Below, one piece after another: positions 47,200-62,332 of a stretch of DNA of 64,000 nt (the stretch's first letter is position 1; each line of letters opens with the position of its first letter). Source of the DNA: Halorientalis sp. LT38 (lineage in GTDB: Archaea > Halobacteriota > Halobacteria > Halobacteriales > Haloarculaceae); contig NZ_JAYEZN010000001.1 of NCBI RefSeq assembly GCF_037031225.1, forward strand, positions 1,488,001 through 1,552,000. The letters run 5' to 3'. The notes under the pieces were generated by a model that saw only the letters and a program-made list of their open reading frames with translations, was not told where the DNA came from and searched no databases. The translations under genes were made by a program, and so were the position numbers.

Positions 47200-48072
47200 A
47201 TGGCTGTCTCGACGATGTCGGAAGCGATGCGGACGGTCGGCGACGGGGACGTGGTGTACGTCGGCGGCTTCGGGTTCGCCCAGCCGTTCGCCGCCGTCCA
47301 CGAACTGATTCGACGGGAGCCGGCGGATCTGCACGTGATCCGCTCCTCCGGCGGCGTGTTGCTCGATCAACTGATCGGCGCCGGCTGCGTCTCGGCGGCT
47401 ACCATCGCCCACTGCTGGAACGCGGTCGGCCCGGCCCCGACGAGCGCGTTCCGCCGAGCGGCCGAGGACGGCGTCCCCAGACCCATCGAGATCGAAGAAC
47501 ACGGGCTCGGCAACCTCGTCCTGCGCCTGTTCGCCGGCGCTCGCCGCCTCCCCTTCGTCCCCGCCGGCCCGGTCGAGGGGACCGGCCAGTTCGAGCACCA
47601 GACCTTCGAGGGCAAATTCACCGAAGTTTCCTTCGACGGCGACACCCACTACGTGATGGAGCCGCTGACCCCGGACGTCGGCGTGCTCCACGTCCCGCGA
47701 GCGGACGAGCGGGGCAACGCCCAGCTGACGGGCGCCCGCGCCGAGATCAAACACGGCGCGATGGCGTCGGAGACGCTCGTCGTCACGGCGGAAGAGATCG
47801 TACCCTCCGAGGAGATCCAGGACACGCCCGACCAGACGATCCTCCCGGGGTTCATGGTCGACCACGTGGTCGAATCGCCCGGCGGCGCCCACCCGTCGGG
47901 CGTCCACGGGCGCTATCCGCGCGACATCGACTACCTCGAACACTACGGCGAGGTGACCGACTCACGGGAGGGCTTCGAGGCCTACCTCGACGACTGGGTG
48001 TACGGCGTCGGCGACCGCGAGGAGTACCTCGCCGCCGTTCGCGACAGCGGGTTCGCGGAGGTGGCCCCGTGA
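47200..48072 (+). CDS. CoA-transferase, alpha subunit (glutaconate-type)
   Basis: The protein has 290 residues; an internal ATG at 47215 is a possible start. The opening MRTVGDGDVVYVGGFGFAQPFAAVHELIRR carries the GG(F) CoA-binding loop of class I CoA-transferase A subunits, and HVPRADERGNAQL and VVESPGGAHPSG are conserved subunit-A segments. With the overlapping B subunit it moves CoA between carboxylic acids. The nearest known relatives by sequence form are glutaconate CoA-transferase and IpdA of the steroid catabolic path. Confidence 0.87.
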   Translation: MAVSTMSEAMRTVGDGDVVYVGGFGFAQPFAAVHELIRREPADLHVIRSSGGVLLDQLIGAGCVSAATIAHCWNAVGPAPTSAFRRAAEDGVPRPIEIEEHGLGNLVLRLFAGARRLPFVPAGPVEGTGQFEHQTFEGKFTEVSFDGDTHYVMEPLTPDVGVLHVPRADERGNAQLTGARAEIKHGAMASETLVVTAEEIVPSEEIQDTPDQTILPGFMVDHVVESPGGAHPSGVHGRYPRDIDYLEHYGEVTDSREGFEAYLDDWVYGVGDREEYLAAVRDSGFAEVAP

Positions 48073-48860
48073 GCGACGCCGCACCGACCCGCCGGGAGCA
48101 GTTGCTGTTCACGGCGGCCCAGGAGTTCGAGGACGAGCGGACGGTCTTCACCGGCTTTCACTGGCCGGTCGTCGCCGCGCGAGTGGCGCGCAAACTCCAC
48201 GCACCCGACCTGACCTCCGTCTTCGAGGCCGGCATCGTCTACCGCGGCACCTCCGAGACGCTGCCGACCAGCACGACCGAGATCAACGCCTTCGACGGCA
48301 ACACGGACATGTACGGCAACTCGCTGGACACGCTGCACACCTTCCTCAAGTCCGGCCAGCTCGACCGGGCGGCCATCGACGTCTCGAACGTCGACCGCTT
48401 CGGCAACGTCAACACGACAGTGGTTGGGGAGTACGACGACCCGGCGGTTCGGCTGCCGGGCCCGGGCGGCGCGAACGACATCGCGACCCACACCGAGGAC
48501 CTGACGCTGATCTGTGGCTCGGCCGACCCCGAGCGATACCAGGACCGGGTGTCCTACGTCTCCAGCCCCGGCCACATCGACGGCGACGGCTCGCGGGAGG
48601 CCGCCGGCTTCGAGCCCGGAACTGGGCCGTCGAAACTCGTCACGCCGCTGGGGACCTTCCGGTTCGACGAGACGGGACGCGCCCGCCTCGCCAGACTCGC
48701 CCCGGGTGCGAGCGTCGACGACGTCCGCGAGATGACCGGCTGGGAGATCGAGGGCGGCGACTACGACACCGCCCCGGAGCCGGATGCGGACCAGCTGGCC
48801 GTCGTCCGCGAGGTCCTCGCGGAGGCCGCGGACCGCAACTACGCGGCGATCCGCCCCTGA
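48069..48860 (+). CDS. CoA-transferase, beta subunit (glutaconate-type)
   Basis: The protein has 263 residues with a GTG start that overlaps the alpha-subunit stop by 4 bp. SVFEAGIVYRG places a Glu at residue 53, matching the position of the catalytic Glu of glutaconate CoA-transferase B (near residue 54). NVDRFGNVNTTVVGEY, GTFRFDETG and APGASVDDVREMTGWEI follow GctB/IpdB. Because the Glu is retained, the canonical CoA-transfer mechanism is likely, in contrast to IpdB hydrolases. Confidence 0.87.
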   Translation: MSDAAPTRREQLLFTAAQEFEDERTVFTGFHWPVVAARVARKLHAPDLTSVFEAGIVYRGTSETLPTSTTEINAFDGNTDMYGNSLDTLHTFLKSGQLDRAAIDVSNVDRFGNVNTTVVGEYDDPAVRLPGPGGANDIATHTEDLTLICGSADPERYQDRVSYVSSPGHIDGDGSREAAGFEPGTGPSKLVTPLGTFRFDETGRARLARLAPGASVDDVREMTGWEIEGGDYDTAPEPDADQLAVVREVLAEAADRNYAAIRP

Positions 48861-48939: not shown

Positions 48940-49911
48940 ATGGCACATGTAACGCGCAGGGAGCTCTCTCTCCCGCGATACCGGATACCGACGGGCGCCA
49001 TCCGCGACCAGTGGGGCGGCGGTGCCAGCGGAGTACAGGAAAAAACAGTGCAGGCGAAAGACGACGATCCGACGACGCTCGCGACGCGGGCTGGGCTGGC
49101 CGCGCTGGACGGGCGGACCGACGTCGACGCCGTCTTCTTCGCCACGACCACCGCGGCCTACGAGTACGGGTCGGTGACGCCCTTCCTCGCGGAGTCGCTC
49201 GGCCTCGACGACGACACCTACGTCCAGGCGTTCGGCGAGTCCTCGCGGGCGGGCACCGCCGCACTCCGGGCCGCCCACGACGCCGTGGCCGGCGGACGGG
49301 AAGCGGTCCTGGTCCTGGCCGCAGAGGCACCCTCGCCGCGCCCGCGAAGCGACCGCGAGACGGTCGCAGGCGCCGGCGCGTCGGCGGTCCTCGTGGAAGC
49401 CGACGGTGACGGCCTCGAACGCGTCGCGACCGGTTCCTGTGCCCGCCCGCTCCTCGACGAGTGGGAGGCGCCGGGCGGCGAGACGCGACAGACGGCGGAC
49501 GACCGCTTCGCCCGCGACAAGGGCTACGTCGAGACGACCGAGCAGGCCGTCGACCGCGCGCTCGACGCCGCCGGATGGGCCGCCGACGACCTCGGCGCGC
49601 TCGTCCTGCCCCACCCGAACGGCAAGTTCGCCGGCCGACTCGCCGGTGCCGTCGGCGTCGGCGAGGGCGTCCTGGCGACGCCGGCCTTCGGCCGGGAGTA
49701 CGGAGACCTCGGTGCGGCGAGCACCGCGGGCTCGCTGGCACTGGCCGACCTCGCAGCGGGGGACCGCCTCGTCGTCGCCGGCTACGGCGCCGGGACCGCC
49801 GACGCGCTGGCCTACGAGGTCTCGGAACCGCCGGCGGCCGCCTCGGTCGACGGCGAGACGGTCGAACTCGACTACGTCGATTACCTCGAACACGCAGATC
49901 AACTGGAGTGA
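48940..49911 (+). CDS. HMG-CoA synthase-like protein with Ser at the catalytic Cys position
   Basis: The protein has 323 residues of thiolase fold, closest in form to archaeal HMG-CoA synthase. The active-site segment usually reads ACKAGTAAL; here it is ESSRAGTAAL, so Ser102 replaces the nucleophilic Cys. The later His segment LPHPNGKFAGRL is kept. It starts a tight HMGS-like / DUF35 / thiolase operon; archaeal HMGS, DUF35 and acetoacetyl-CoA thiolase form one complex. A changed or structural role is likely, not mevalonate synthesis. Confidence 0.8.
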   Translation: MAHVTRRELSLPRYRIPTGAIRDQWGGGASGVQEKTVQAKDDDPTTLATRAGLAALDGRTDVDAVFFATTTAAYEYGSVTPFLAESLGLDDDTYVQAFGESSRAGTAALRAAHDAVAGGREAVLVLAAEAPSPRPRSDRETVAGAGASAVLVEADGDGLERVATGSCARPLLDEWEAPGGETRQTADDRFARDKGYVETTEQAVDRALDAAGWAADDLGALVLPHPNGKFAGRLAGAVGVGEGVLATPAFGREYGDLGAASTAGSLALADLAAGDRLVVAGYGAGTADALAYEVSEPPAAASVDGETVELDYVDYLEHADQLE

Positions 49912-49917
49912 CAACAG

Positions 49918-50316
49918 ATGCACACGACAATGCGGCAGTTCCGCGACAGGGCGACCAAGTACGGCCTGGAGCGGGCCGAGTGTACAGACTGCGGCCGGAT
50001 GAACGACCCCAGCGCCGAGCTGTGTTACCACTGCGGCGGCGACGCCTTCGAGGACGTGACCCTCTCGCGACGCGGCGAGGTCAAGACCTACGTCGTCCAG
50101 CACATCCTCCCGGAGACCTTCGACACGCCGCTGCCCATCGCCATCGTCGAGACGCCGGAGGGCGGGAAGGTGCTCGGGATGTTCACCGAGGTCGACGACC
50201 CCCACGCGATCGAGATGGGCGAGCAGGTGACGATCGAGTTGAAGCGGTTCGACCGCCAGGACGGGCAGGTGCTCTACGAGCCCAAGTTCCGCCGCGAGGG
50301 AGGTGAGACCGCGTGA
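49918..50316 (+). CDS. Zn-ribbon OB-fold protein (DUF35)
   Basis: The protein has 132 residues. The N-terminal rubredoxin-like ribbon has CTDCGRMN (residues 22-25) and CYHCGG (around 36-39); the OB-fold follows with VVQHILPETFDTPLPIAIVE. DUF35 proteins act as CoA-channelling scaffolds for thiolase-fold enzymes (acetoacetyl-CoA thiolase/HMGS, or steroid aldolases). Start is 6 bp after the HMGS-like stop and the end overlaps the thiolase GTG start by 4 bp, so coupling is strong. Confidence 0.9.
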   Translation: MHTTMRQFRDRATKYGLERAECTDCGRMNDPSAELCYHCGGDAFEDVTLSRRGEVKTYVVQHILPETFDTPLPIAIVETPEGGKVLGMFTEVDDPHAIEMGEQVTIELKRFDRQDGQVLYEPKFRREGGETA

Positions 50317-51476
50317 GCCGCGACGTCGCCGTCGTCGGCGCGGGGATGATCCCCTTCGGCGAGCGCTTCGAGATGGGCTACTACGACATGATGGGGCGGG
50401 CCTACGCCAACGCCAAGGACGACGTCGCCCACGGGATCGACAACGACGACGTCGACGCCGCGTGGCTCGGCACCGCCTACGGGACGCTCTCGAACGACGC
50501 CGAGATCGTCTCCGGCGCGCGCCTGAGCGAGGCGACCGGCCTCCAGGGCGTGCCGATCACGCGCGTCGAGAACGCCTGCGCCACCGGCAGCGACGCGGTG
50601 CGCAACGCCGCCGCAGCGGTCCAGGCCGGCCAGGCCGACGTCGCCGTCGTCGTCGGGGGCGAGAAGATGCGGGACAAGCCCACCGACGAGTTCATGAAGA
50701 CGGTGACGAACCGGCCGACGACCCGCGGGATGACCGCGCCGGCCTTCTTCGCCATGTACGCCCAGCGGCACATGCAGGAGTACGGCACCACCCGCGAGCA
50801 GATGGCCGAGGTGGCCGTCAAGAACCACCACAACGGGACCCTCTGTGAGTACTCGCACTTCGACTTCGAGGTCGACGCCGAGTCCGTCCTGGAGGCGCCC
50901 TACGTTTCCTACCCCTTCGGCCTCTACGACTGCTCGCCCCAGACCGACGGCGCGGCGTGTCTCGTCCTCGCGAGCGAGGACGTCGCCGACTCCTACGCCG
51001 ACGAACCCGTCTGGATCCGCGGGACCGGCAACAGCACAGTCCCATACGACATGACCAAGCGCGACGACTACCTGGAGGCCGACCCGACCGTCGCGGCCGC
51101 CAGCCAGGCCTACGAGATGGCCGACCTCGGCCCCGACGACGTGGACGTCGTCGAGCAGCACGACTGTTTCACCTTCACCGAGTTGCTCAACATGGAGGAT
51201 CTCGGCTTCTGCGAGAAGGGCGAGGGCGGCCCGTTCGTCGCGAGCGGCGCGACCCGTCTCGACGGCGAACTGCCCGTCAACCCCTCCGGCGGCCTGAAGG
51301 CCAAGGGCCACCCGATCGGCGCGACCGGCGTCGCCCAGATCTGCGAACTCGTCTGGCAACTGCGCGGCGAGTGCGGCGAGCGCCAGGTCGACGACCCGGA
51401 CGTCGGCCTCCAGCACAACCTCGCCGGCTCGCTGGCCGTGAGCAACGTCACCGTCGTCTCGACCGAGCAGCACTGA
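50313..51476 (+). CDS. Thiolase family protein
   Basis: The protein has 387 residues with a GTG start. The nucleophilic Cys lies at residue 89 in ENACATGSDAV, EQHDCFTFTELL supplies a catalytic His, and GGLKAKGHPIGATG the second His. This is the SCP2/acetyl-CoA acetyltransferase-like group that pairs with DUF35. It probably cleaves a 3-oxoacyl-CoA or related beta-keto thioester. A T6 run (51490-51495) after the stop suits termination of the five-gene transcript. Confidence 0.9.
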   Translation: MSRDVAVVGAGMIPFGERFEMGYYDMMGRAYANAKDDVAHGIDNDDVDAAWLGTAYGTLSNDAEIVSGARLSEATGLQGVPITRVENACATGSDAVRNAAAAVQAGQADVAVVVGGEKMRDKPTDEFMKTVTNRPTTRGMTAPAFFAMYAQRHMQEYGTTREQMAEVAVKNHHNGTLCEYSHFDFEVDAESVLEAPYVSYPFGLYDCSPQTDGAACLVLASEDVADSYADEPVWIRGTGNSTVPYDMTKRDDYLEADPTVAAASQAYEMADLGPDDVDVVEQHDCFTFTELLNMEDLGFCEKGEGGPFVASGATRLDGELPVNPSGGLKAKGHPIGATGVAQICELVWQLRGECGERQVDDPDVGLQHNLAGSLAVSNVTVVSTEQH

Positions 51477-51568: not shown

Positions 51569-52348
51569 ATGTACGAGGACGTACGCTACGAGACCGACGA
51601 GGGCACCGCGACCATCACCATCGACCGCCCGGACGTGCTCAACGCCTTCCGGGAGCAGACGATCCTGGAGCTCAACGCCGCGATCCGGGACGCTCGCGAG
51701 GACGACGGCGTCTACGCCATCGTCCTGACCGGGGCCGAGGGGAGCTTCTGCGCCGGCGCCGATACGACGGACATGCCCGCCTGGGACGAACAGGCCAAAG
51801 AGGACTACGCCGGCTACCTCTGGGGCGTCCAGAACGTCGTCCGACAGCTCCGCGCGTCGTCGAAACCCTCCATCGCCGCCGTCGACGGCCCCGCGGTCGG
51901 CGCCGGCTGTGACTTCGGGCTGGCCTGCGACATGCGCGTCGTCGGCCCGGACGCCTTCTTCCGCGAGGGGTTCGTCCGCGTCGGCCTGATCCCCGGCGAC
52001 GGCGGCGCGTGGCTGCTCCCCCGCCTGATCGGCGAGAGCGCCGCCAAGCAGTACCTCCTGACCGGCCGCGACATCGAACCCGAGGACGCCGTCGACCTCG
52101 GCCTCGCCGTCGAGGAGGCCGAGGACCCCCTCGAGGCCGCCCACGACCTGGCCGACGAACTCCTGGGCCTGCCCGCGACCGCCGTCCAGCGGACGAACGA
52201 CCTGGTCGACTCCGAGCAGGGCTTCGAGGACTACTGCGAGCGAGCCATCGAGTACCAGTGGGACTGCGTCAACGACCCCGAACACCACGAGGCCGTCGCC
52301 GCCTTCAACGAGAAACGCGAGCCGTCATACGATCGGGACTACAGCTAG
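51569..52348 (+). CDS. Enoyl-CoA hydratase/isomerase family protein
   Basis: The protein has 259 residues from the ATG at 51569. TITIDRPDVLNAF, GSFCAGADTTDM (oxyanion loop 1), AVDGPAVGAGCDFGLACDMRV (loop 2) and REGFVRVGLIPGDGGAWLLPRLIG are crotonase signature blocks. The catalytic Glu pair of hydratases is only partly clear (EGF at about 131 and D at about 139), so hydratase, isomerase or hydrolase activity is possible. It fits the beta-oxidation-like cluster. Confidence 0.87.
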   Translation: MYEDVRYETDEGTATITIDRPDVLNAFREQTILELNAAIRDAREDDGVYAIVLTGAEGSFCAGADTTDMPAWDEQAKEDYAGYLWGVQNVVRQLRASSKPSIAAVDGPAVGAGCDFGLACDMRVVGPDAFFREGFVRVGLIPGDGGAWLLPRLIGESAAKQYLLTGRDIEPEDAVDLGLAVEEAEDPLEAAHDLADELLGLPATAVQRTNDLVDSEQGFEDYCERAIEYQWDCVNDPEHHEAVAAFNEKREPSYDRDYS

Positions 52349-52375: not shown

Positions 52376-53509
52376 TCAGACCAGGTCCGGAATCCCGTTC
52401 TTCTTGAGTTCCGCGGCGATCTGGTTCTTCTGGATCTCGTCGGTGCCAGCGGCCAGTCGGCGGCCACGGGCGCGGCGGTAGAGGTTCTCCAGCGGGTGGC
52501 CCTGCTGGTAGCCGTTCGCGCCGAAGATCTGGAGCGACTCGCTGGTGACCTCCTCGACGGTCTCGGAGGCGAGGAGTTTGGCGAGCGAGGCGTCCAGCCG
52601 GTCGGGGATGCGACCCTGCTGTTCGGCGTTGACGGCCGCCCGGTAGGTCAGCGCCCGCGCGGACTCCAGTTGCTTTGCCATGTCGGCGAGTTTCCACTCG
52701 ATCCCCTGGAAGTCCCCGATGGGCTGGTCGAACTGCTCGCGCTGCTGGGCGTAATCGAGGGCCTTGTCCAGCGCACACCGGCTCCAGGCGTTCGCGACCG
52801 TCGCGCTCCCGAGTCGTTCCCAGTTGAGCGCCTTCAACTGCTGTTTGAACCCTTCCTTCCCACGGGTGACGACGTTCGCCTCGGGGACGGTCACGTCCTC
52901 CATCCGGAAGTGGGTCTGCTCGTGACCGGCCATGTTCGTGTAGTGCTGTTCGATCTCGACGCCGTCCCAGTCGAACTCGACGAGGACCGAGCCCAGGCCC
53001 TCGGGGAACTGCGTCCAGACGAGCGCGGCGCTCGCGGCCTTGACGTGGCTGACCCAGATCTTCTCGCCGTTGAGGATCAGATCGCCGTCGTCTTCGGTGA
53101 CCTCGGTGCGCATCGACCCGACGTCCGACCCGGATTCGGGCTCGGAGATGGCGATACAGATGGCGTCCTCGCCGGCAGTCACAGGGGGAAGGTACTGCTC
53201 TTTGGCCTCGTCGGTTCCGAACATCTCGATGGCGCGGGGCGCGACCATCTGCTGGTTGTAGAGGAACTCGGCGGTGTCGGGGCAGACCCGACCGACCGCC
53301 TCGATGCTGAGCATGGCGTCGAGTTCGCCCATCCCGCCGCCGCCGTACTCCTCGGCGATGTTGATCCCGAGGAAGCCGCGATCGGCGAGCAGTTCGACGT
53401 TGGGCCAGGGCGCTTCGTGCCACGAGAACGCGTCCGCGGCGAACTCGGCCTCGGCCAGATCGGCGAGCGACGACACCAGCATCTCCTGTTCCGCAGAGAG
53501 CGAGAGCAT
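52376..53509 (-). CDS. Acyl-CoA dehydrogenase
   Basis: The protein has 377 residues from the ATG at 53509. The opening LSAEQEMLVSSLADLAEAEF, ISEPESGSD (FAD-binding loop), GANGYQQGHPLENLYRRARGRRLAAGTDEIQKNQIA (C-terminal FAD/CoA block) are those of the acyl-CoA dehydrogenase family. It catalyses FAD-dependent 2,3-desaturation of an acyl-CoA, electrons going to ETF. The catalytic Glu position in this subfamily is not obvious from sequence. It is divergent from the next acyl-CoA dehydrogenase; a GTTTACGG box 24-31 bp upstream suggests a leaderless message. Confidence 0.9.
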   Translation of the reverse strand: MLSLSAEQEMLVSSLADLAEAEFAADAFSWHEAPWPNVELLADRGFLGINIAEEYGGGGMGELDAMLSIEAVGRVCPDTAEFLYNQQMVAPRAIEMFGTDEAKEQYLPPVTAGEDAICIAISEPESGSDVGSMRTEVTEDDGDLILNGEKIWVSHVKAASAALVWTQFPEGLGSVLVEFDWDGVEIEQHYTNMAGHEQTHFRMEDVTVPEANVVTRGKEGFKQQLKALNWERLGSATVANAWSRCALDKALDYAQQREQFDQPIGDFQGIEWKLADMAKQLESARALTYRAAVNAEQQGRIPDRLDASLAKLLASETVEEVTSESLQIFGANGYQQGHPLENLYRRARGRRLAAGTDEIQKNQIAAELKKNGIPDLV

Positions 53510-53688
53510 ACCCCAGATTGGGGGAACTGGACCGTAAACCTTCCCCGGCCGGAAAGCCGGCGGGCGATCACCGGGTGATCGCGTGGTCCGAACGACCGAT
53601 CTCCGGTCGGCAGCTGACTGGCCTCTACCGCTCGTTTTCGGTGTCCTCCGTGATCTCCGAGACGGCCGGACGGGTGCCGTGGTACGAA

Positions 53689-53695
53689 CTTTTAT
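53689..53695 (+). promoter_or_regulatory. TATA-like box of the second acyl-CoA dehydrogenase
   Basis: CTTTTAT lies about 26 bp before the ATG at 53721, giving a leaderless transcript. A mirror GTAAACC (53533-53539) serves the divergent gene. Confidence 0.5.
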
Positions 53696-53720
53696 CTCCG
53701 CACCGACGGACCCTCGGGGT

Positions 53721-54890
53721 ATGACGGTCAATCTGTCCGACGAGGAGCGCACACTCCGCGACCGCACGCGGGCGTTCGGGGAGGAGCACGTGAAGCCGGT
53801 CGCGATGGACCACGTCGAGTCCGGCGAGTGGCCCTGGGAGGTCTACCGGAAGGCCGCCGACGAGGGACTCATCGGCCTGCCCTTCGAGGAGGAGTACGGC
53901 GGCCAGGACGCCTCGCTCGTCGAGCAGTGTCTCGTGGCACAGGAGTTCTGCCGCGCGGACTCCTCGGTCGGCATCGCCCTCCACGGCTCGATGACGGGCT
54001 GTCACGCCATGTCCGCGCTGGGCACCCACGAGCAGAAAGAACGCTGGCTCGAACCGGTCACCCGCGGCGAGATGACGACGGCCATCGGTCTGACCGAACC
54101 CGACTCCGGGTCGGCGCTGGCCGAGACGACGACGACGGCCGAGAAAGACGGCGACGAGTACGTCATCAACGGCCAGAAAGACTGGATCGCAAACGGCGTC
54201 AGCGGTGACTGGGTCGCGACGCTCTGTCGCACCGACCCGAACCCGGAGAAACCCCACCGCGGGCTGAGCCTGATCGTCGTCCCGACGGACGCCGACGGCT
54301 ACGAGGCCGAAGAGCGGGAGAAGCTCGGACTGGACGCCGCCGAACACGCCCGCATGACCTACGACGACGTGCGCGTCCCCCAGGAGAACCTGCTCGGCGA
54401 GGAGGAGGGCAAGGGGTTCTACCACGCGCTCGACTGGCTCGAACACGGCCGGGTCGACATCGCCGCCGCCCACCTCGGGATGGCCGAGGGGGCCTTCGAC
54501 CGCGCGCTGGCCAGGGCCAAGGACCGCGAACAGGGCGGGCAGCGCATCGGCGACTACCAGGGGATGCGCTGGAAACTGGCGGACATGCGAAAGCAGATCG
54601 AGGTGGCCAACTCGCAGGTCTACCGCGCGGCGCGGGCCATCGACGAGTCCGAGGCCGGCGGCGAGGTCGAGGAGAGCCTGATCGAGCAGGCCAGCATCGC
54701 CAAGCTCTACGCCACGGAGATCGCCTGCGACGTCGCCGAGGAGGCCGTCCAGATCTTCGGCGGGGCCGGCTACGGCACCGACGAGGTGGTCGAACACTTC
54801 TACCGCGACGTGAAGGCCGGCACCATCTACGAGGGTACGAGCGAGATCCAGCGCAACACGATCGGGAAGGTGCTCTTCGATGAGCTCTGA
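53721..54890 (+). CDS. Acyl-CoA dehydrogenase
   Basis: The protein has 389 residues from the ATG at 53721. LTEPDSGSAL (FAD loop), KDWIANG, QIFGGAGYGTDEVVEHFYRDVKAGTIYEGTSEIQRNTIGK (C-terminal signature) and the putative catalytic Glu in YEGTSE are present. It is a regular short/medium-chain-type dehydrogenase. It overlaps the following LLM oxidoreductase gene by 11 bp, so the two are translationally coupled. Confidence 0.92.
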   Translation: MTVNLSDEERTLRDRTRAFGEEHVKPVAMDHVESGEWPWEVYRKAADEGLIGLPFEEEYGGQDASLVEQCLVAQEFCRADSSVGIALHGSMTGCHAMSALGTHEQKERWLEPVTRGEMTTAIGLTEPDSGSALAETTTTAEKDGDEYVINGQKDWIANGVSGDWVATLCRTDPNPEKPHRGLSLIVVPTDADGYEAEEREKLGLDAAEHARMTYDDVRVPQENLLGEEEGKGFYHALDWLEHGRVDIAAAHLGMAEGAFDRALARAKDREQGGQRIGDYQGMRWKLADMRKQIEVANSQVYRAARAIDESEAGGEVEESLIEQASIAKLYATEIACDVAEEAVQIFGGAGYGTDEVVEHFYRDVKAGTIYEGTSEIQRNTIGKVLFDEL

Positions 54891-55806
54891 GATCGACTTC
54901 GGCGTCATGCTGTCGACGTTCGGGGATCACGCCACCCCGGAGGCGTTCCGCCGGGTCGCCACGACCGCCGAGGACGCCGGCTTCGACTCCGTGTGGGCGG
55001 GCGACCACATCTCGTTCCCGGCGGAGATCCCCGACGAGTACCCCTTCTCGCCCAGCGGCGAGTCGCCCTTCCACGTCACGCAGGACACCTACGACGTCTT
55101 CGGCGTCCTCTCGCACCTGGCGGGGGTCACCGACTCCGTCGACCTGGGGACCAACACCTGCATCGTCCCCTACCGCCACCCGGTCGTCCTGGCTCGCAAC
55201 GCCCTGACCGTCGAGGCGCTGTCCGACGGCCGCTTCGACTTCGGCGTCGCACCGGGCTGGATGGAGACGGAGTTCGAGGTGCTCGACGTCCCCTTCGAGG
55301 AGCGAGGCAGCCGGACCGACGAGTTCCTCGAGATCTTCACCCGCGCCTGTGAGGAGGGGCAACTCTCCTTCGACGGCCCCCACCACTCCTTCCAGGAGAC
55401 CGGCTTCTACCCGACGCCCGAGGACGACGGGCCGACCATCTGGCTGGGCGGGAAATCGGGCGCGTCCTTCCGGCGGACGGCCCAGTTCGGCGACGGCTGG
55501 ACCATCTTCTGGGACCGACCCGACGACATCGCCAAAGGGAGAGAACGGCTCATGAACGCCTGGACCGACTTCGAGCGCGAGGGCGAGCCCGAAGTGGCGG
55601 TCATCCGAGCCACCGAAGTCGGCCAGGACACAGAGCGCGACTCGGAGAAACCGCTGGTGGGCGAGCCAGCGGAGATCGCCGCCGACGTCGAGGAGTACGT
55701 CGACGCCGGAACCACCCGGATCGTGATCGACTTCTACACGACCGACATCGACGAACAGGTCGAACAGGTCGAGCGGTTCGCCGACGGCGTCGTCGACGCC
55801 TTCTGA
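54880..55806 (+). CDS. LLM-class flavin-dependent oxidoreductase
   Basis: The protein has 308 residues. It has a luciferase-like TIM barrel: VATTAEDAGFDSVWAGDHI, NTCIVPYRHPVVLARNALTVEALSDGRFDFGVAPGW and PTIWLGGKSG. Such enzymes use F420H2 or FMNH2 for oxidation or reduction of organic substrates. The coupling to an acyl-CoA dehydrogenase and the lack of a known LLM role in beta-oxidation make the reaction unclear; a monooxygenase or reductase of the substrate ring or chain is possible. Confidence 0.86.
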   Translation: MSSEIDFGVMLSTFGDHATPEAFRRVATTAEDAGFDSVWAGDHISFPAEIPDEYPFSPSGESPFHVTQDTYDVFGVLSHLAGVTDSVDLGTNTCIVPYRHPVVLARNALTVEALSDGRFDFGVAPGWMETEFEVLDVPFEERGSRTDEFLEIFTRACEEGQLSFDGPHHSFQETGFYPTPEDDGPTIWLGGKSGASFRRTAQFGDGWTIFWDRPDDIAKGRERLMNAWTDFEREGEPEVAVIRATEVGQDTERDSEKPLVGEPAEIAADVEEYVDAGTTRIVIDFYTTDIDEQVEQVERFADGVVDAF

Positions 55807-55973: not shown

Positions 55974-57203
55974 ATGTCATCCCATAGACGCAGAGACGTG
56001 CTGAAGGGCGCCGGCGTTGTCGGTGTTGGAGCGATGACCAGTCTGGCAGGGTGTAGCGGGAATCAGGGCAACGGCGGCGGCGGTGGCGACACGATCAGCG
56101 TCGGGCACCTCGCCGCGCTGTCCGGACCGTTCGCGACGATCGGTGAGCCGTCACGGGACGGGGCCGACCTCGCGGCGAAGCAGATCAACGAGTCCGACAG
56201 CGACATCGAGATCGAGATGACCCACGCCGACACGCAGAGTTCACCGGAGACGGGCGTCACGCGGGCCCGGGAACTCGTCCAGCAGGAGGACATCGACGTC
56301 CTGATGGGCTTCGGGAGCAGTTCGGTGGCCAAGGCCGTCTCCGAGTTCGCCAACACGCAGGACACCCTCATGGTGGCGACCATCGCGCAGACGCCGGACA
56401 TCACCACGGGCGACTGCAACCGGGTCACCTTCCGGACGGCGTCGAACCTGGACCAGCTGACGACCGCGCTGGCCCAGACGACGAACGAGTTGTCCGACGG
56501 GACGACCGTGGCCGGCATCCTGCCGGACTACACGTTCGGCAAGCAGACCTGGGAGGTCTACCGGTCGGCGATGGAGGATTCGGGCGCCGAGATCGTCAAC
56601 GAGACGTTCCCGGCCTTCGGGAAGGGCGACTACCAGAACGAGATCCAGGAGACGCTCAACGCAGAGCCGGACATCGTCTACACGTCGATGTGGGCCGGCG
56701 ACCTGATCACGTTCATCCAGCAGGCCGACGGGTTCGACTTCTTCGAACAGATCCCCGACTTCGTCGCGGGCAGCGGGGCCATCACTGACGTCTCGATCAG
56801 CATGGGCGCGGACATGAAGGAGATGATCTCCGTCGACCGGTACTTCTTCCAGTATCCCGACACCCAACTGAACAAAGACTTCGTGCAGGCCTGGCGCGAC
56901 GAGTACGACGAGCTCCCGGTCAACGTCGGCCAGGAGACCTACGCCGGCGTCTACGGCGTCCTCGAGGCCGCGAACGAAAGCGGCGGGACGAGCACCGACG
57001 ACCTCGTCAGCGGGCTGGAGGGACTCGAGTGGGACGCCCCCGAGGGGACCAAGAAGATGCGCGCCGCCGATCACCAGGTCATCGACGACAGCATCTGGAC
57101 GGGCCGCGTCGGTCCGGTCGACGATCTGGACTTCTACGGCTTCACCGAGATGGTTCCCGTCGACGGCCAGAGCGTTACGCCCGAACCGAACTGCGACCTC
57201 TGA
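55974..57203 (+). CDS. ABC transporter substrate-binding lipoprotein (LivJ-like)
   Basis: The protein has 409 residues. The twin-arginine signal RRRDVLKGAGVVGVGAMTS ends in the lipobox LAGC, so it is a Tat-exported lipoprotein. A Gly-rich linker precedes a periplasmic-binding fold type I domain (GHLAALSGPFATIGEPSRDGADLAAKQIN; ADTQSSPETGVTRARELVQQEDIDVLMG), as in branched-chain amino acid or aromatic-acid receptors. It supplies cargo to the permeases that follow. Confidence 0.9.
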   Translation: MSSHRRRDVLKGAGVVGVGAMTSLAGCSGNQGNGGGGGDTISVGHLAALSGPFATIGEPSRDGADLAAKQINESDSDIEIEMTHADTQSSPETGVTRARELVQQEDIDVLMGFGSSSVAKAVSEFANTQDTLMVATIAQTPDITTGDCNRVTFRTASNLDQLTTALAQTTNELSDGTTVAGILPDYTFGKQTWEVYRSAMEDSGAEIVNETFPAFGKGDYQNEIQETLNAEPDIVYTSMWAGDLITFIQQADGFDFFEQIPDFVAGSGAITDVSISMGADMKEMISVDRYFFQYPDTQLNKDFVQAWRDEYDELPVNVGQETYAGVYGVLEAANESGGTSTDDLVSGLEGLEWDAPEGTKKMRAADHQVIDDSIWTGRVGPVDDLDFYGFTEMVPVDGQSVTPEPNCDL

Positions 57204-57260
57204 TCCCGGCGACCGCCGCCGACGGCACCAACCACCCTATTTCAGTATGAAACCGACACC

Positions 57261-58157
57261 ATGGTAGCCCTCGATAGTATCGCATTGGCAATCATCAGCG
57301 GCATCGCCAACGGGATGTTGCTGTTTCTGGCGGCCGTCGGCCTGACGCTCATCTTCGGCGTCCTCGACGTGTTGAACTTCGCGCACGGGTCGCTGTACAT
57401 GCTCGGGGCGTACTTCACGTACTTCCTGGTGAGTGCGAACGGCGTCCTCGCCGGGATTCCCGGCGCCTTCTGGCTCGCCCTGCTCATCGCACCGATGCTG
57501 GTCGCGCTGGTCGGCGTCGTGATGGAGCGGTTCGTCATCCGGCCGGTGTACGACCAGGACCACGAGTTCCAGTTGCTGCTCACCTTCGGGCTCGTTCTGA
57601 TCATCGACAACGGGGCGCGCATCCTCTGGGGCACGAACTTCCGCTCCGTGAACCCCCCGGAACTGCTGCGCTTCCAGATCGAACTGTTCGGCAGCGGCTA
57701 CCCGTTCTACAACATCTTCCTCATCATCGTGGGCGCGATCGCGGCGCTCGTGATGTGGCTGGTGTTCGAGCGCACCCGCGTCGGGAAGATCGTCCGCGCG
57801 TCCTCGCAGGACCGCGGGATCGCGAACGCGCTGGGCGTGAACGTGCCCCTCGTGTTCACCGGCACCTTCCTCGTCGGGAGCCTGCTCGCAGGCCTCGGCG
57901 GCGCGCTCGCGGCGCCGTACCAGTCGATCCAGCCGACCCTCGGTGAGAGCATCATCATCGAGTCGTTCATCATCGTCGTGATCGGCGGCCTGGGCTCCTT
58001 TAGCGGGGCGTTCGTCGGGGCGCTACTGATCGGCGTCGTCAACTCGCTGGCCTTCCTCTATCTCCCCTCGCTGCAGCCGATCATCCCGTTCGTCCTCGTC
58101 GCGATCGTCCTGCTGACGAGGCCCGCGGGCCTGTTCGGGAAGGAGGTGGCCGCATGA
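57261..58157 (+). CDS. Branched-chain amino acid-type ABC permease LivH
   Basis: The protein has 298 residues with about eight membrane helices. IISGIANGMLLFLAAVGLTLIFGVLDVLNFAHGSLYMLG is the LivH opening, and FERTRVGKIVRASSQDRGIANALGVN the EAA-like cytoplasmic loop that meets the ATPase. Stop and livM start overlap by 4 bp (ATGA). It is one half of the membrane channel. Confidence 0.92.
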   Translation: MVALDSIALAIISGIANGMLLFLAAVGLTLIFGVLDVLNFAHGSLYMLGAYFTYFLVSANGVLAGIPGAFWLALLIAPMLVALVGVVMERFVIRPVYDQDHEFQLLLTFGLVLIIDNGARILWGTNFRSVNPPELLRFQIELFGSGYPFYNIFLIIVGAIAALVMWLVFERTRVGKIVRASSQDRGIANALGVNVPLVFTGTFLVGSLLAGLGGALAAPYQSIQPTLGESIIIESFIIVVIGGLGSFSGAFVGALLIGVVNSLAFLYLPSLQPIIPFVLVAIVLLTRPAGLFGKEVAA

Positions 58158-59212
58158 ACGCACTCGACCGCCTCACCGACTCGCGCACCGCCTCGATCGG
58201 CCTGGTCGCCGGGCTGGTCATGCTCGTGCTTCCCTTCACCGGGCTCCTCTCCGAGTTCTACCTCGGCCTCGTCATCTCGGCGATGGTCCTGGCGCTGTTC
58301 GCGATGAGCTTCAACCTGCTCTTTGGCTACACCGGGATGCTGTCCTTCGGTCACGCCGCGTACTTCGGGACTGGTGCATACGTGCTCGCGCTGGCGCTCG
58401 ACGGCGAACTGGGCTTCATACCGGGCGTCTTCGAGTCGTTCGTGCCGGCGCTGGTGCTCGCCGTCCTCGCGTCGGGCGTCGTGGCACTCGTGATCGGGTT
58501 CCTCTGCGTCCAGCGGGGCGACATCTACTTCGCCATCCTGACGCTGGCGCTGAGTATGATGCTCTACGAGACGGTGTTCACCTGGAACGACGTCACCGGC
58601 GGCTCCGACGGACTCACGGTCCTGGTCGCACCGATCGAACTCGCCGGGTTCTCCGTCAACCTGGTCGACACCGGGACGTTCTACTTCCTGACGCTGGCCC
58701 TGCTGGCCGGCTCCATCGTCCTGCTCTGGCGGCTGGTCAACTCGCCGTACGGCGAGTTGCTCCTCTCGATCCGCGAGAACCCCGAACGCGCGACGATGAT
58801 CGGTATTCCGGTCAAGCGCTACCAGCTGTCGTCCTTCGTCATCGCGGGGCTCTTCGCCGGCCTCGCGGGAACCCTGTTCGCCGTGCGGACGTTCATCGTG
58901 ACGCCACACACCCTGCACTGGTCGATGAGCGCCGAACCGGTGATGATGACGCTGCTGGGCGGCCCCAGCGCGTTCGTCGGCCCGATCATCGGCGCGGTGA
59001 TGTTCGTCGGCCTCGAACAGGCGCTCTCGAACATCACCGAACACTGGCAGTTCGGGCTCGGACTGCTGATCGTCCCCATCGTCCTCTTCTTCCCCAACGG
59101 CCTCGTCGGGATCCTGCGGGGCGACAGCGGTGGGACCGTCAGCGTCCGTGAGTCCATCGCCGGACTGCTGGGGCGGGAGTCCCCGACCACGGAGGAGGAT
59201 GCCCATGAGTGA
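58154..59212 (+). CDS. Branched-chain amino acid-type ABC permease LivM
   Basis: The protein has 352 residues with about ten helices. FNLLFGYTGMLSFGHAAYFGTGAYVLAL and the loop SPYGELLLSIRENPERATMIGIPVKRYQL are LivM features. Overlaps livH (4 bp) and the LivG ATPase (8 bp). It is the second channel half. Confidence 0.92.
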   Translation: MNALDRLTDSRTASIGLVAGLVMLVLPFTGLLSEFYLGLVISAMVLALFAMSFNLLFGYTGMLSFGHAAYFGTGAYVLALALDGELGFIPGVFESFVPALVLAVLASGVVALVIGFLCVQRGDIYFAILTLALSMMLYETVFTWNDVTGGSDGLTVLVAPIELAGFSVNLVDTGTFYFLTLALLAGSIVLLWRLVNSPYGELLLSIRENPERATMIGIPVKRYQLSSFVIAGLFAGLAGTLFAVRTFIVTPHTLHWSMSAEPVMMTLLGGPSAFVGPIIGAVMFVGLEQALSNITEHWQFGLGLLIVPIVLFFPNGLVGILRGDSGGTVSVRESIAGLLGRESPTTEEDAHE

Positions 59213-59954
59213 GCCACTGCTCGAACTCGACGGTCTGACGAAACGCTTCGGTGAACTGACCGCGGTCGACGACGTGACCCGGTCGGTCGACGCCGACGAC
59301 CTGACGGCCCTGATCGGGCCGAACGGCGCCGGCAAGACCACCATGTACAACCTCATGACCGGGACCCTCTCGCCGACGAGCGGCACGGTCCGGTTCATGG
59401 GCGAGGACGTGACCGGCCTCGAACCGCACGAGCGCGTCCAGCGCGGCCTGGGCCGCTCCTACCAGGTGACGAACGTCTTCGAGGGGCTGAGCGTCCGTCG
59501 CAACATCCGCGCGCCGATCATCGCGCGGTCGAACCAGCGCTGGAACCTGCTCGGGTCCACCACCGAGGAGATCGAGTCCGAGACCGACCGGGTGCTCGAC
59601 CTGGTCGGCCTGGGCGACATCGAGAACGCAGAGTGCGCGGCGCTGTCCTATGGGGACAAGCGCCGCGTCGAGATCGGCGTCGCGCTGGCGACCGATCCCA
59701 ACCTCATCCTGCTCGACGAGCCGACGGCGGGGATGAACCCCACCGAGACCGAGAAGATGGTCGAGCTGATCGAGGAGCTCAACGAGGAGACGAACCGATC
59801 CTTCTTCATGACCGAACACGACATCGACATCATCTTCTCGATCGCGACGCGGATCCTCGTCCTCGACCGCGGCGCGATCATCGCTGACGGCACCCCGGAG
59901 GACATCCGGCAGAACGAGCGCGTGCAGAGCGCCTACCTCGGAGGTGAAGCATGA
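59205..59954 (+). CDS. ABC transporter ATP-binding protein LivG
   Basis: The ATG at 59205 gives 249 residues, with GGAGGAGG as ribosome binding site; an upstream ATG at 59199 adds two residues. Walker A is GPNGAGKTT (around 37-45), the signature is LSYGDKRR, Walker B LILLDEPTAGMNP, and the switch is EHD. GRSYQVTNVFEGLSVRRNI is typical of LivG. It overlaps LivF by 4 bp. Confidence 0.92.
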   Translation: MSEPLLELDGLTKRFGELTAVDDVTRSVDADDLTALIGPNGAGKTTMYNLMTGTLSPTSGTVRFMGEDVTGLEPHERVQRGLGRSYQVTNVFEGLSVRRNIRAPIIARSNQRWNLLGSTTEEIESETDRVLDLVGLGDIENAECAALSYGDKRRVEIGVALATDPNLILLDEPTAGMNPTETEKMVELIEELNEETNRSFFMTEHDIDIIFSIATRILVLDRGAIIADGTPEDIRQNERVQSAYLGGEA

Positions 59955-60667
59955 GCATCCTCACTGTCGACGACATCCACACGTACTACGGGCAGAGCCA
60001 CGTGCTCCACGGCGTCTCGCTCGACGTCGCGGAGGGCGAGAGCGTCGCCCTGCTCGGCCGGAACGGCGCCGGCAAGACCACCACGCTGCGGAGCATCATC
60101 GGGATGACCCCGCCCCGCGAGGGGCGCATCGAGTTCAAGGGCGAACGGGTCGACGGCATGGAGCCGTACCAGATCGCCCGCCGCGGCATCGGGCTGGTGC
60201 CCGAGGAGCGCCGCGTGTTTCCCGAACTCTCCGTCGACGACAACATCGAGGTCGTGATGGCCAAAGGGGGCGAGTGGGACCGCGAGCGCGTCTACGACGT
60301 GTTCCCGGCGCTACGGGAGCACCGAACGCAACTCGCCGGCCAGCTCAGCGGTGGCCAGCAGCAGATGCTCACCATCGCCCGCGCACTGGTGACCGACCCC
60401 GATCTCCTCCTGCTGGACGAACCCAGCGAGGGGCTGGCGCCGAACATCGTCGCCGACCTGAAGTCGCTGCTCGAGGACGTGCTCGACACCGGGATCACGG
60501 TGCTGTTGACCGAACAGAACACGGAGTTCGCCTTCGACCTGGCCGAGCGAGCCTACATCCTCAGCAAGGGCGAGGTCACGTGGGAAGGCGACGTCGAGAC
60601 GCTGCAGGAGAGCGAGGACGTCATCAGCAAGTACCTCTCGGTCGCGGCCGTCGGCGTCGACGACTAG
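59951..60667 (+). CDS. ABC transporter ATP-binding protein LivF
   Basis: The protein has 238 residues. Walker A GRNGAGKTT, signature LSGGQQQM, Walker B LLLLDEPSEGLAP and GIGLVPEERRVFPELSVDDNI are LivF hallmarks. It pairs with LivG to power the importer. The convergent acyl-CoA synthetase begins on the next base after its stop, so operon transcription ends here. Confidence 0.92.
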   Translation: MSILTVDDIHTYYGQSHVLHGVSLDVAEGESVALLGRNGAGKTTTLRSIIGMTPPREGRIEFKGERVDGMEPYQIARRGIGLVPEERRVFPELSVDDNIEVVMAKGGEWDRERVYDVFPALREHRTQLAGQLSGGQQQMLTIARALVTDPDLLLLDEPSEGLAPNIVADLKSLLEDVLDTGITVLLTEQNTEFAFDLAERAYILSKGEVTWEGDVETLQESEDVISKYLSVAAVGVDD

Positions 60668-62332
60668 CTACTCGCCGGCCTGGATCCCGTGCCGCAGCGG
60701 CTCGGGAACCAGTTCCTTTTTGAGCACTTTGCCGCCGGGATTCTTCGGCAGGTCGTCGACGATCCGGAACACCTCCGGGATCTTGTAGTCGGCGAGGCGC
60801 GTCCGGGCGTGCTCGACCAGTTCCTCCTCGGTGAGGCGTTCGCCCGGCTTCGGGACGACCGCGGCCAGCACCCGCTCGCCCAGCACTTCGTCGGGGAAGC
60901 CCGTCACGGAGCACTCGAGGACTTTCTCGTGGCCCGTCAGCACCTCCTCGACGTCGAGGACGTAGATGTTCTCGCCGCCGCGGACGATCTTGTCTCTACT
61001 TCTGCCCTTGAGGGAGACGAACCCGTCGGGGTCGATCGTCGCGAGGTCGCCCGTGTAGTGCCAGCCGTCGGCGAAGGCCTCGGCGGTCGCCTCGGGGCGG
61101 TTGCGGTAGCCGTCGACGACGATGGGGCCGCGGATGGCCAGTTCGCCCACCTCGTCGGGGCCCAGCGGTTCGCGCTCGTCGTCGACGACGGCGAGTTCTA
61201 TCGGCGGCGCCGGGAGGCCGATCGTCGAGGCGTAGTCGTCGGAGTACTCGTCGGGGCACATGGTGACGAGGCCGGCGGTGGTCTCGGTCGTCCCGTAGGC
61301 GTCACAGAGGGCGGCCTCGGGGAAAAAGTCGCGGAGCCGGCGGACGTTCTCCTCGGGCATCGGCGCGCCGCCGTAGGCGGCGGTCTGCAGCGAGGAGAGG
61401 TCGTACTCGCCGGGTTCGGTCCGCTTCATCGCGAGAACATAGGTCGTCGGCACTGTGAGCGTGAACTCGATGTCCTGGGTCTCGACGGTCGACAGGAAGG
61501 TCTCCGGGCCCGCGCCGTCGAGGACGACGGTGGTCCCGGTGGCCGCGAGGGTGTGCAACACGTTCGAGACGAGTCCGGCCCCGTGGAACAGGGGGACCAG
61601 CACGAGCGTCCGCAGGCCCTCGCTGGTGTCGAAGGAGACGTGGTAGTTGATCGCCCCGTTGACGAGGTTCCGGTGGGAGACGAGACACCCCTTGGGCTGG
61701 CCGGTCGTCCCGGACGTGTACATGATCGTGCAGGTCTCGCCCTCGTCGGGGTCGGCCCGCGGCGGGTCGGCGCCCGTCTCGAACAGCGACTCGTAGGACT
61801 GGCCGGGGCCGTCGGCCGGCGCGTCGACGACGTAGTACGACGACGGATCGGGGTCGTAGTCGGCGTCGTCGACGTTCTCGGCCAGCTCGCGCTCGGTGAT
61901 CAGGACCGCCGGGTCCGCGTCCGCGAGCAGCGGCGAGAGCTCCCGCGAGGAGACGCGGGTGTTGATCGGCGCGACCGTCGCGCCGAGGCGGGCGCAGGCG
62001 AAGAACGTCTCGACGAACGCGGGGCGATTGCTCAGCAGCGCGCTCACGATGTCCCCCTCGCCGACGCCGTCGGCGGCGAGGCCGGCGGCGAGTCGGTCGA
62101 CGCGGTCGTCGAACTCGCGGTAGGTGTCGGTGCGGTCGTACTCCGGGTAGACGAACGCCTCGCGGTCGGGGGCGCGGTCGAGCGCCGCGTCGAACAGCGC
62201 CGGGACGTTCGCCGGCCGGTCGGGGTAGGCGAGGGCCCCGTCGGCCTCGCGTTCGAGGCCGAAGGCGTCGGGGTCGTGGTGGACGATGCCGTCGGTCCAG
62301 CTGATGGTGCTGGTGTCGTATCCCTGTTTCAT
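60668..62332 (-). CDS. Acyl-CoA synthetase (AMP-forming)
   Basis: The protein has 554 residues. The P-loop motif TIMYTSGTTGQPKGCLVSH (around 212-230), CDAYGTTETTAG, WHYTGDLATID and the C-terminal catalytic Lys in PKNPGGKVLKKEL define an ANL-superfamily ligase. It activates a carboxylic acid with ATP and CoA. Located beside an importer, it is the likely first step after uptake. Chain or ring specificity is not evident. Confidence 0.9.
   Translation of the reverse strand: MKQGYDTSTISWTDGIVHHDPDAFGLEREADGALAYPDRPANVPALFDAALDRAPDREAFVYPEYDRTDTYREFDDRVDRLAAGLAADGVGEGDIVSALLSNRPAFVETFFACARLGATVAPINTRVSSRELSPLLADADPAVLITERELAENVDDADYDPDPSSYYVVDAPADGPGQSYESLFETGADPPRADPDEGETCTIMYTSGTTGQPKGCLVSHRNLVNGAINYHVSFDTSEGLRTLVLVPLFHGAGLVSNVLHTLAATGTTVVLDGAGPETFLSTVETQDIEFTLTVPTTYVLAMKRTEPGEYDLSSLQTAAYGGAPMPEENVRRLRDFFPEAALCDAYGTTETTAGLVTMCPDEYSDDYASTIGLPAPPIELAVVDDEREPLGPDEVGELAIRGPIVVDGYRNRPEATAEAFADGWHYTGDLATIDPDGFVSLKGRSRDKIVRGGENIYVLDVEEVLTGHEKVLECSVTGFPDEVLGERVLAAVVPKPGERLTEEELVEHARTRLADYKIPEVFRIVDDLPKNPGGKVLKKELVPEPLRHGIQAGE

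Follow-up and report, generated by a model that had tools for sequence, protein, structure and literature searches.

What does an HMG-CoA synthase (HMGS)-like protein do when Ser stands in place of the catalytic Cys? The question is raised by three adjacent genes, encoding proteins of the HMGS-like, DUF35 and thiolase types, in a stretch of 64,000 nucleotides (the window) from the haloarchaeon Halorientalis sp. LT38, whose genome measures 3.58 Mb (Table 1). A gap of 6 bp separates the first two genes, and the GTG start of the thiolase at 50313 overlaps the DUF35 gene by 4 bp; this close packing was correctly described in a preliminary description of the locus. Three neighbouring genes of these types are also what a three-component thiolase complex calls for. 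The same description held that such a complex had been repurposed for catabolism, with an HMGS-like subunit that is either structural or acts as a retro-aldolase or hydrolase.

Table 1. Features of the triad and its neighbourhood, with positions in the window.
Feature	Position	Strand	Basis or remark
CoA-transferase alpha subunit, GctA-like	47200..48072	+	82% in G004
CoA-transferase beta subunit, GctB-like	48048..48860	+	EAG where GctB has ESG; 89% in G004
HMGS-like subunit without HMGS catalytic residues	48940..49911	+	323 aa; alignments, AlphaFold2 model
Ser102 codon TCG at the HMGS nucleophile position	49243..49245	+	GCC (Ala) in the G004 orthologue
DUF35 subunit (zinc ribbon and OB-fold)	49918..50316	+	CTDCG...CYHCG zinc ribbon; Pfam PF01796
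SCP2-type thiolase: Cys89, His283 (HDCF), His333 (GHP)	50313..51476	+	Pfam thiolase families, conserved active-site columns
Enoyl-CoA hydratase/isomerase family protein	51569..52348	+	Syntenic in G004
Acyl-CoA dehydrogenase	52376..53767	-	Listed ORF; true start probably further downstream
Acyl-CoA dehydrogenase	53583..54890	+	Listed ORF; true start probably further downstream
F420-dependent luciferase-like oxidoreductase	54880..55806	+	TIGR03619
ABC transporter: substrate-binding protein, two permease-like and two ATPase-like ORFs	55974..60667	+	Pfam for the first; last four read from sequence and synteny
Acyl-CoA synthetase-like (AMP-forming) ORF	60668..62332	-	Sequence reading; syntenic in G004

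Residues at the HMGS active-site positions

As a reference for the active site we used residues 13-314 of the Methanothermococcus HMGS (6esq), where the catalytic positions were computed as Glu82, Cys114 and His238; the first two agree with the published numbering (PMC6392133). In all alignments made, Ser102, within the motif QAFGES-S102-RAGTAAL, falls on Cys114, as had been proposed from the segment ESSRAGTAAL, and no other Cys aligns at this position. The Glu82 column is occupied by Thr70. The segment LPHPNGKF, in which the catalytic His was thought to be kept, is in register with FHQPNGKF of 6esq. This places Pro224 at the His238 position (deposited numbering), and His225 comes one residue late, opposite Gln239. 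Judged by these alignments all three HMGS catalytic residues are replaced, not only the Cys. Against the archaeal HMGS equivalog of NCBIfam (NF003274) the protein scores 109.5 bits, below the cut-off of 244, and its sole Pfam match falls under the cut-off of that family. The host genome carries a separate, mevalonate-type HMGS with Glu, Cys and His intact (C1:2949991-2951241).

A search of 146 genomes of the host's family returned a sole close relative of the HMGS-like protein, which is 80% identical and comes from a member of the same genus (G004). The neighbourhoods match from an SMC-like gene through the CoA ligase. This orthologue has Ala at position 102 and Thr at position 224. The HMGS-like protein is the least conserved of the triad, the DUF35 protein and the thiolase being 85% and 91% identical to their G004 counterparts. 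Its gene also has the highest dN/dS among those for which the ratio was computed, 0.22, which still means purifying selection. This value, and relatives that also lack the Cys, led us to reject a pseudogene or sequencing error for this gene. An error in the Ser102 codon in particular can be ruled out as the cause, because the entire clade described below has no Cys at the nucleophile position.

A clade of non-catalytic HMGS-like proteins

Our first family set contained 70 aligned sequences, 15 of them canonical HMGS (the archaeal type and the host's own mevalonate HMGS). Glu, Cys and His are all kept in the 15 canonical rows (15 of 15) and all three are absent from the others (55 of 55), which take in the triad subunit, haloarchaeal HMGS-DUF35 fusions, PhlA and relatives. 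In a maximum-likelihood tree the catalytic and non-catalytic sets lie on the two sides of a single branch (support 100/95), which amounts to one change. The triad subunit and its orthologue share a long branch that the tree does not place precisely, and MucA (9vbo) and the host's own HMGS are also long branches of unsure placement. In its loss of the three residues, and in grouping apart from catalytic HMGS, the triad subunit is like PhlA.

A second set of 79 ORFs was drawn from named genomes, among them many haloarchaea, Carboxydothermus, Dehalococcoidia and other Chloroflexota, Acetothermia, Thermodesulfobacteriota and Actinomycetota. The nucleophile column of these relatives holds Thr (62), Leu (10), Ile (3), Ala (2) or Cys (2, both canonical), and none of the 79 has Ser. 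Across the clade as a whole the residue ranges over Ser, Ala, Thr, Leu, Ile, Arg, Gln and others. Because the syntenic orthologue has Ala, and 77 of the 79 relatives have Thr, Leu, Ile or Ala, we read Ser102 as one of the forms that a dead site takes across a large clade and not as a new nucleophile. Nor does the same Ser recur in other triads that adjoin CoA-transferases: the only other GctA/GctB-like pair lies at L083 (Natronococcus pandeyae), where the subunit has Thr. Real as the finding is, the preliminary description stressed the wrong feature: Ser in place of Cys is a single trace of an HMGS site that has been taken apart completely, in accessory subunits that form an old and widely distributed clade.

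Most of the 79 relatives bear a zinc-ribbon tail, making them natural HMGS-DUF35 fusions, and 74 have a thiolase on the same strand no more than 400 bp away; several of the remainder are cut by contig ends. On both counts the HMGS-like part appears tied to the complex, and gene adjacency together with the fusions gives indirect support to a physical assembly. That said, members of the clade need not be equally inert, because 11 of the 79 retain the catalytic His without Glu and Cys, both of which are replaced by Thr or Ala. This subset is possibly in a state of partial function. The loci concerned are haloarchaeal (L124, L129-L130, L132-L135, L137-L138 and L141), with one from Carboxydothermus (L139).

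Related complexes vary in composition and setting. The host genome itself has a second one (G000:C1:80654-84567; L046:5655-9568), with consecutive genes for a thiolase, an HMGS-DUF35 fusion with Thr at the nucleophile position, and a 3-hydroxyacyl-CoA dehydrogenase. On plasmid pHME505 of Haloferax mediterranei (L162:4004-6594) a thiolase accompanies an HMGS-DUF35 fusion annotated as a 'zinc ribbon domain-containing protein', and the pair, WP_004060772/WP_004060773, adjoins paaK, 3-hydroxyacyl-CoA dehydrogenase and enoyl-CoA hydratase genes in a phenylacetate-type cluster. A Natrinema halophilum plasmid (L163:6620-9167) has a triad of an unfused HMGS-like 'hypothetical protein', an OB-fold protein and a thiolase, lying among acyl-CoA dehydrogenases and an F420 oxidoreductase. 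This thiolase is 54.6% identical to that of our triad, and its HMGS-like partner has, by pairwise alignment, Gln at the nucleophile position; in plasmid triads this residue is Gln or Pro. Finally, a bacterial metagenome-assembled genome of Acetothermia (L146:5935-8509) contains an unfused triad with a thiolase 51% identical to ours.

PhlA already provides an example of a dead HMGS-like subunit in a complex of this kind, and only bacterial acyltransferase relatives have been studied. In the literature searched, with partial coverage, we found no published description of the wider family, whose breadth looks undescribed. It is tempting to go further, and we do so tentatively, regarding the idea as more doubtful than not. 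The family could be a broad, undescribed class of three-component CoA thiolases, found in haloarchaea and several bacterial phyla, in which HMGS turned early into a non-catalytic subunit. The pocket left empty, which like that of PhlABC would adjoin the thiolase site without a break, would then have become a chamber where bulky beta-ketoacyl-CoA chains are taken up or channelled.

The partner proteins, the predicted fold and the gene neighbourhood

The thiolase does keep Cys89 and both His motifs, as the preliminary description had stated. Cys89, His283 and Cys285 of HDCF and His333 of GHP are the residues of an SCP2-type CoA thiolase, and Cys89, His283 and His333 are kept in all partner-thiolase rows in which the column is filled. 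Pfam and NCBIfam place it clearly in thiolase families, and its closest solved relative is the thiolase of 6esq (6esq_A, E 4.4e-72). The DUF35 protein is clearly assigned to the DUF35/ChsH2 OB-fold families by Pfam and NCBIfam (38.8 bits against PF01796, cut-off 27.1) and also has a weak NCBIfam match to BbsA of benzoylsuccinyl-CoA thiolase.

An AlphaFold2 model of the HMGS-like protein, built from 44 sequences, has a pLDDT of 91.2 and a pTM of 0.91, and predicts a fold of the HMGS/KAS III superfamily. Its best structural matches are 9skh_A (Z 39.3), 6esq_I (Z 39.1; rmsd 2.6 over 313 residues) and PhlA (Z 38.9), which differ by less than 1 and are thus tied. MucABC (Z 36.6) and free-standing HMGS (Z no higher than 36.3, the best of these tied with MucABC) rank lower. 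The top matches of the model are HMGS-like subunits of thiolase/DUF35 complexes; the shared fold shows no function.

What surrounds the triad indicates the breakdown of an imported acid via its acyl-CoA. The ABC transporter has the gene pattern of branched-chain amino-acid transporters. A 3-hydroxyacyl-CoA dehydrogenase, which plain beta-oxidation gene order would predict, was not found among the examined neighbours. As for the CoA-transferase pair, an IpdAB-like ring hydrolase is not favoured; the closest solved relative is a glutaconate CoA-transferase, and the Glu of its beta subunit is matched by the EAG of the GctB-like protein.

Proposed role of the subunits and alternative readings

The triad is best compared with the 6esq complex, which has the same three subunit types and shares the Cys and His residues of the thiolase. 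However, 6esq retains all three HMGS catalytic residues and makes HMG-CoA, whereas the triad subunit has lost them and sits in a catabolic context. On the non-catalytic side of the tree it is accompanied by the HMGS-like subunits of the Friedel-Crafts acyltransferases PhlABC and CsATase (5M3K, 5MG5 and 9SKH; Z 38.9-39.3). In the acylase PhlABC only PhlC contacts the substrate and carries out catalysis; PhlA, with Gly115 for the Cys and Cys83 for the Glu, does not participate in acyl transfer but is thought, like PhlB, to be required for the complex to assemble, and a continuous cavity is lined by the three subunits (PMC6392133). PhlABC acylates phenols without CoA in antibiotic biosynthesis, whereas the triad thiolase keeps its CoA-thiolase motifs within an acyl-CoA catabolic cluster, and this gene context argues against CoA-independent C-acylation of phenols. 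The HMGS-like subunit of MucABC (9VBO/9VBT, Streptococcus macacae) also lacks Cys, Glu and His, but this complex, with a proposed role in tetramate acetylation in a natural-product pathway (PMC10161427), is very distant and on a long branch.

Other relatives do without an HMGS-like part. The two-component enzymes BktB and PhaA of Haloferax mediterranei work with a thiolase and an essential OB-domain subunit (PMC7137286); no HMGS-like subunit has been described for them, and their thiolase is of the Ser-His-His type where the triad has Cys. The idea that BktB-beta is an HMGS-DUF35 fusion found no support: in the H. mediterranei pair nearest to the host's Ser-type thiolase, probably bktB, the product of the second gene is only about 120 aa long. 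Similarly, Sal, Ltp2 and the benzoylsuccinyl-CoA thiolase BbsAB combine a thiolase-fold enzyme with a DUF35 domain in catabolism, and differ from the triad in having no HMGS-like subunit.

We consider it very probable that the triad is one three-component CoA thiolase in an acyl-CoA catabolic cluster, with the HMGS-like protein as an accessory subunit without HMGS catalysis. The thiolase would perform the chemistry with Cys89, His283 and His333, and the DUF35 protein would act as a bridge. By analogy with 6esq and PhlABC, the HMGS-like subunit most likely keeps the complex together and forms a wall of a shared CoA/acyl cavity beside the thiolase site. The reaction is likely to be thiolytic cleavage of a beta-ketoacyl-CoA derived from an imported carboxylic acid, because the cluster has a transporter, a CoA ligase, a CoA-transferase, acyl-CoA dehydrogenases and an enoyl-CoA hydratase. 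Against this explanation, the need for an HMGS-like part is not obvious, since two-component thiolase-DUF35 enzymes work without one.

Could the complex instead run in the condensing direction, as a beta-ketothiolase or C-acyltransferase? Acetyl-CoA condensation by the 6esq thiolase, the acyltransferase activity of PhlABC and the biosynthetic role of the haloarchaeal BktB/PhaA enzymes would favour it. We nevertheless find this unlikely, as the transporter, CoA ligase, acyl-CoA dehydrogenases and enoyl-CoA hydratase adjoining the triad are conserved in G004, and the host homologue of the H. mediterranei pair of thiolase and short OB-protein is a different gene pair (L004). Another reading is that the complex acts as a retro-aldolase of the Sal or Ltp2 type, cleaving the 3-hydroxyacyl-CoA that the acyl-CoA dehydrogenases and enoyl-CoA hydratase next to it would supply, with no dehydrogenase step. 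Steroid side-chain catabolism offers examples of DUF35-thiolase aldolases (PMC12329534), and it would fit that no 3-hydroxyacyl-CoA dehydrogenase was identified beside the triad. Several homologous complexes do adjoin such a dehydrogenase, however, and the motifs speak against an aldolase: Sal has YDCY with Gly at the thiolase Cys position and Ltp2 has YDHF (PMC12329534), whereas the triad thiolase has HDCF and Cys89 and shares its active-site columns with the 6esq thiolase. We rejected the thiolase as an aldolase on these motifs, and hold the retro-aldolase reading as a whole to be highly improbable.

It seems least credible, with hardly any chance of being correct, that the HMGS-like subunit is a hydrolase or acyltransferase of changed specificity with Ser102 (or Ser101) as its nucleophile. 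In favour of this, the chemistry of Ser allows an ester intermediate, most relatives share Ser101, and the gene is under purifying selection. But residue 102 is Ala in the orthologue from the same neighbourhood and Thr, Leu, Ile, Ala, Gln or Pro elsewhere, and the Glu and His partners are all gone. Furthermore, in CsATase, where Cys88 of PhlC is the catalytic residue, the C88S variant is inactive (PMC12955522), so Ser is a poor stand-in within the fold family. What survives of the preliminary reading is a complex of the thiolase/HMGS/DUF35 type, located in a catabolic cluster, whose HMGS-like subunit is structural and does not condense. The retro-aldolase or hydrolase role offered for that subunit is not supported, given the replacement of Glu, Cys and His, the free variation at the nucleophile position and the SCP2-type motif and Cys of the thiolase.

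A three-component thiolase with a non-catalytic HMGS-like subunit is a simpler and broader idea than an HMGS repurposed by a Cys-to-Ser change: the clade lacks the HMGS site, is locked to a working thiolase and is often fused to DUF35. The role of the dead subunit is testable in genetically workable haloarchaea, e.g. Haloferax mediterranei, which has a fused homologue. Annotation pipelines misname members of the clade or miss them, as with the Natrinema 'hypothetical protein', and both affect reconstructions of the mevalonate and the fatty- and aromatic-acid pathways. A likely trap for HMG-CoA synthase annotation is the Carboxydothermus islandicus protein (L139:6001-6954), which reaches 332.7 bits against NF003274, above the cut-off, though its Glu and Cys are both replaced by Thr.

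A minor observation concerns Ser101 (codon 49240-49242), directly before the nucleophile position. It is Ser in 69 of the 79 relatives although the nucleophile residue varies, which may reflect some local function of the HMGS-like protein; capping the N-terminus of the following helix would be our guess.
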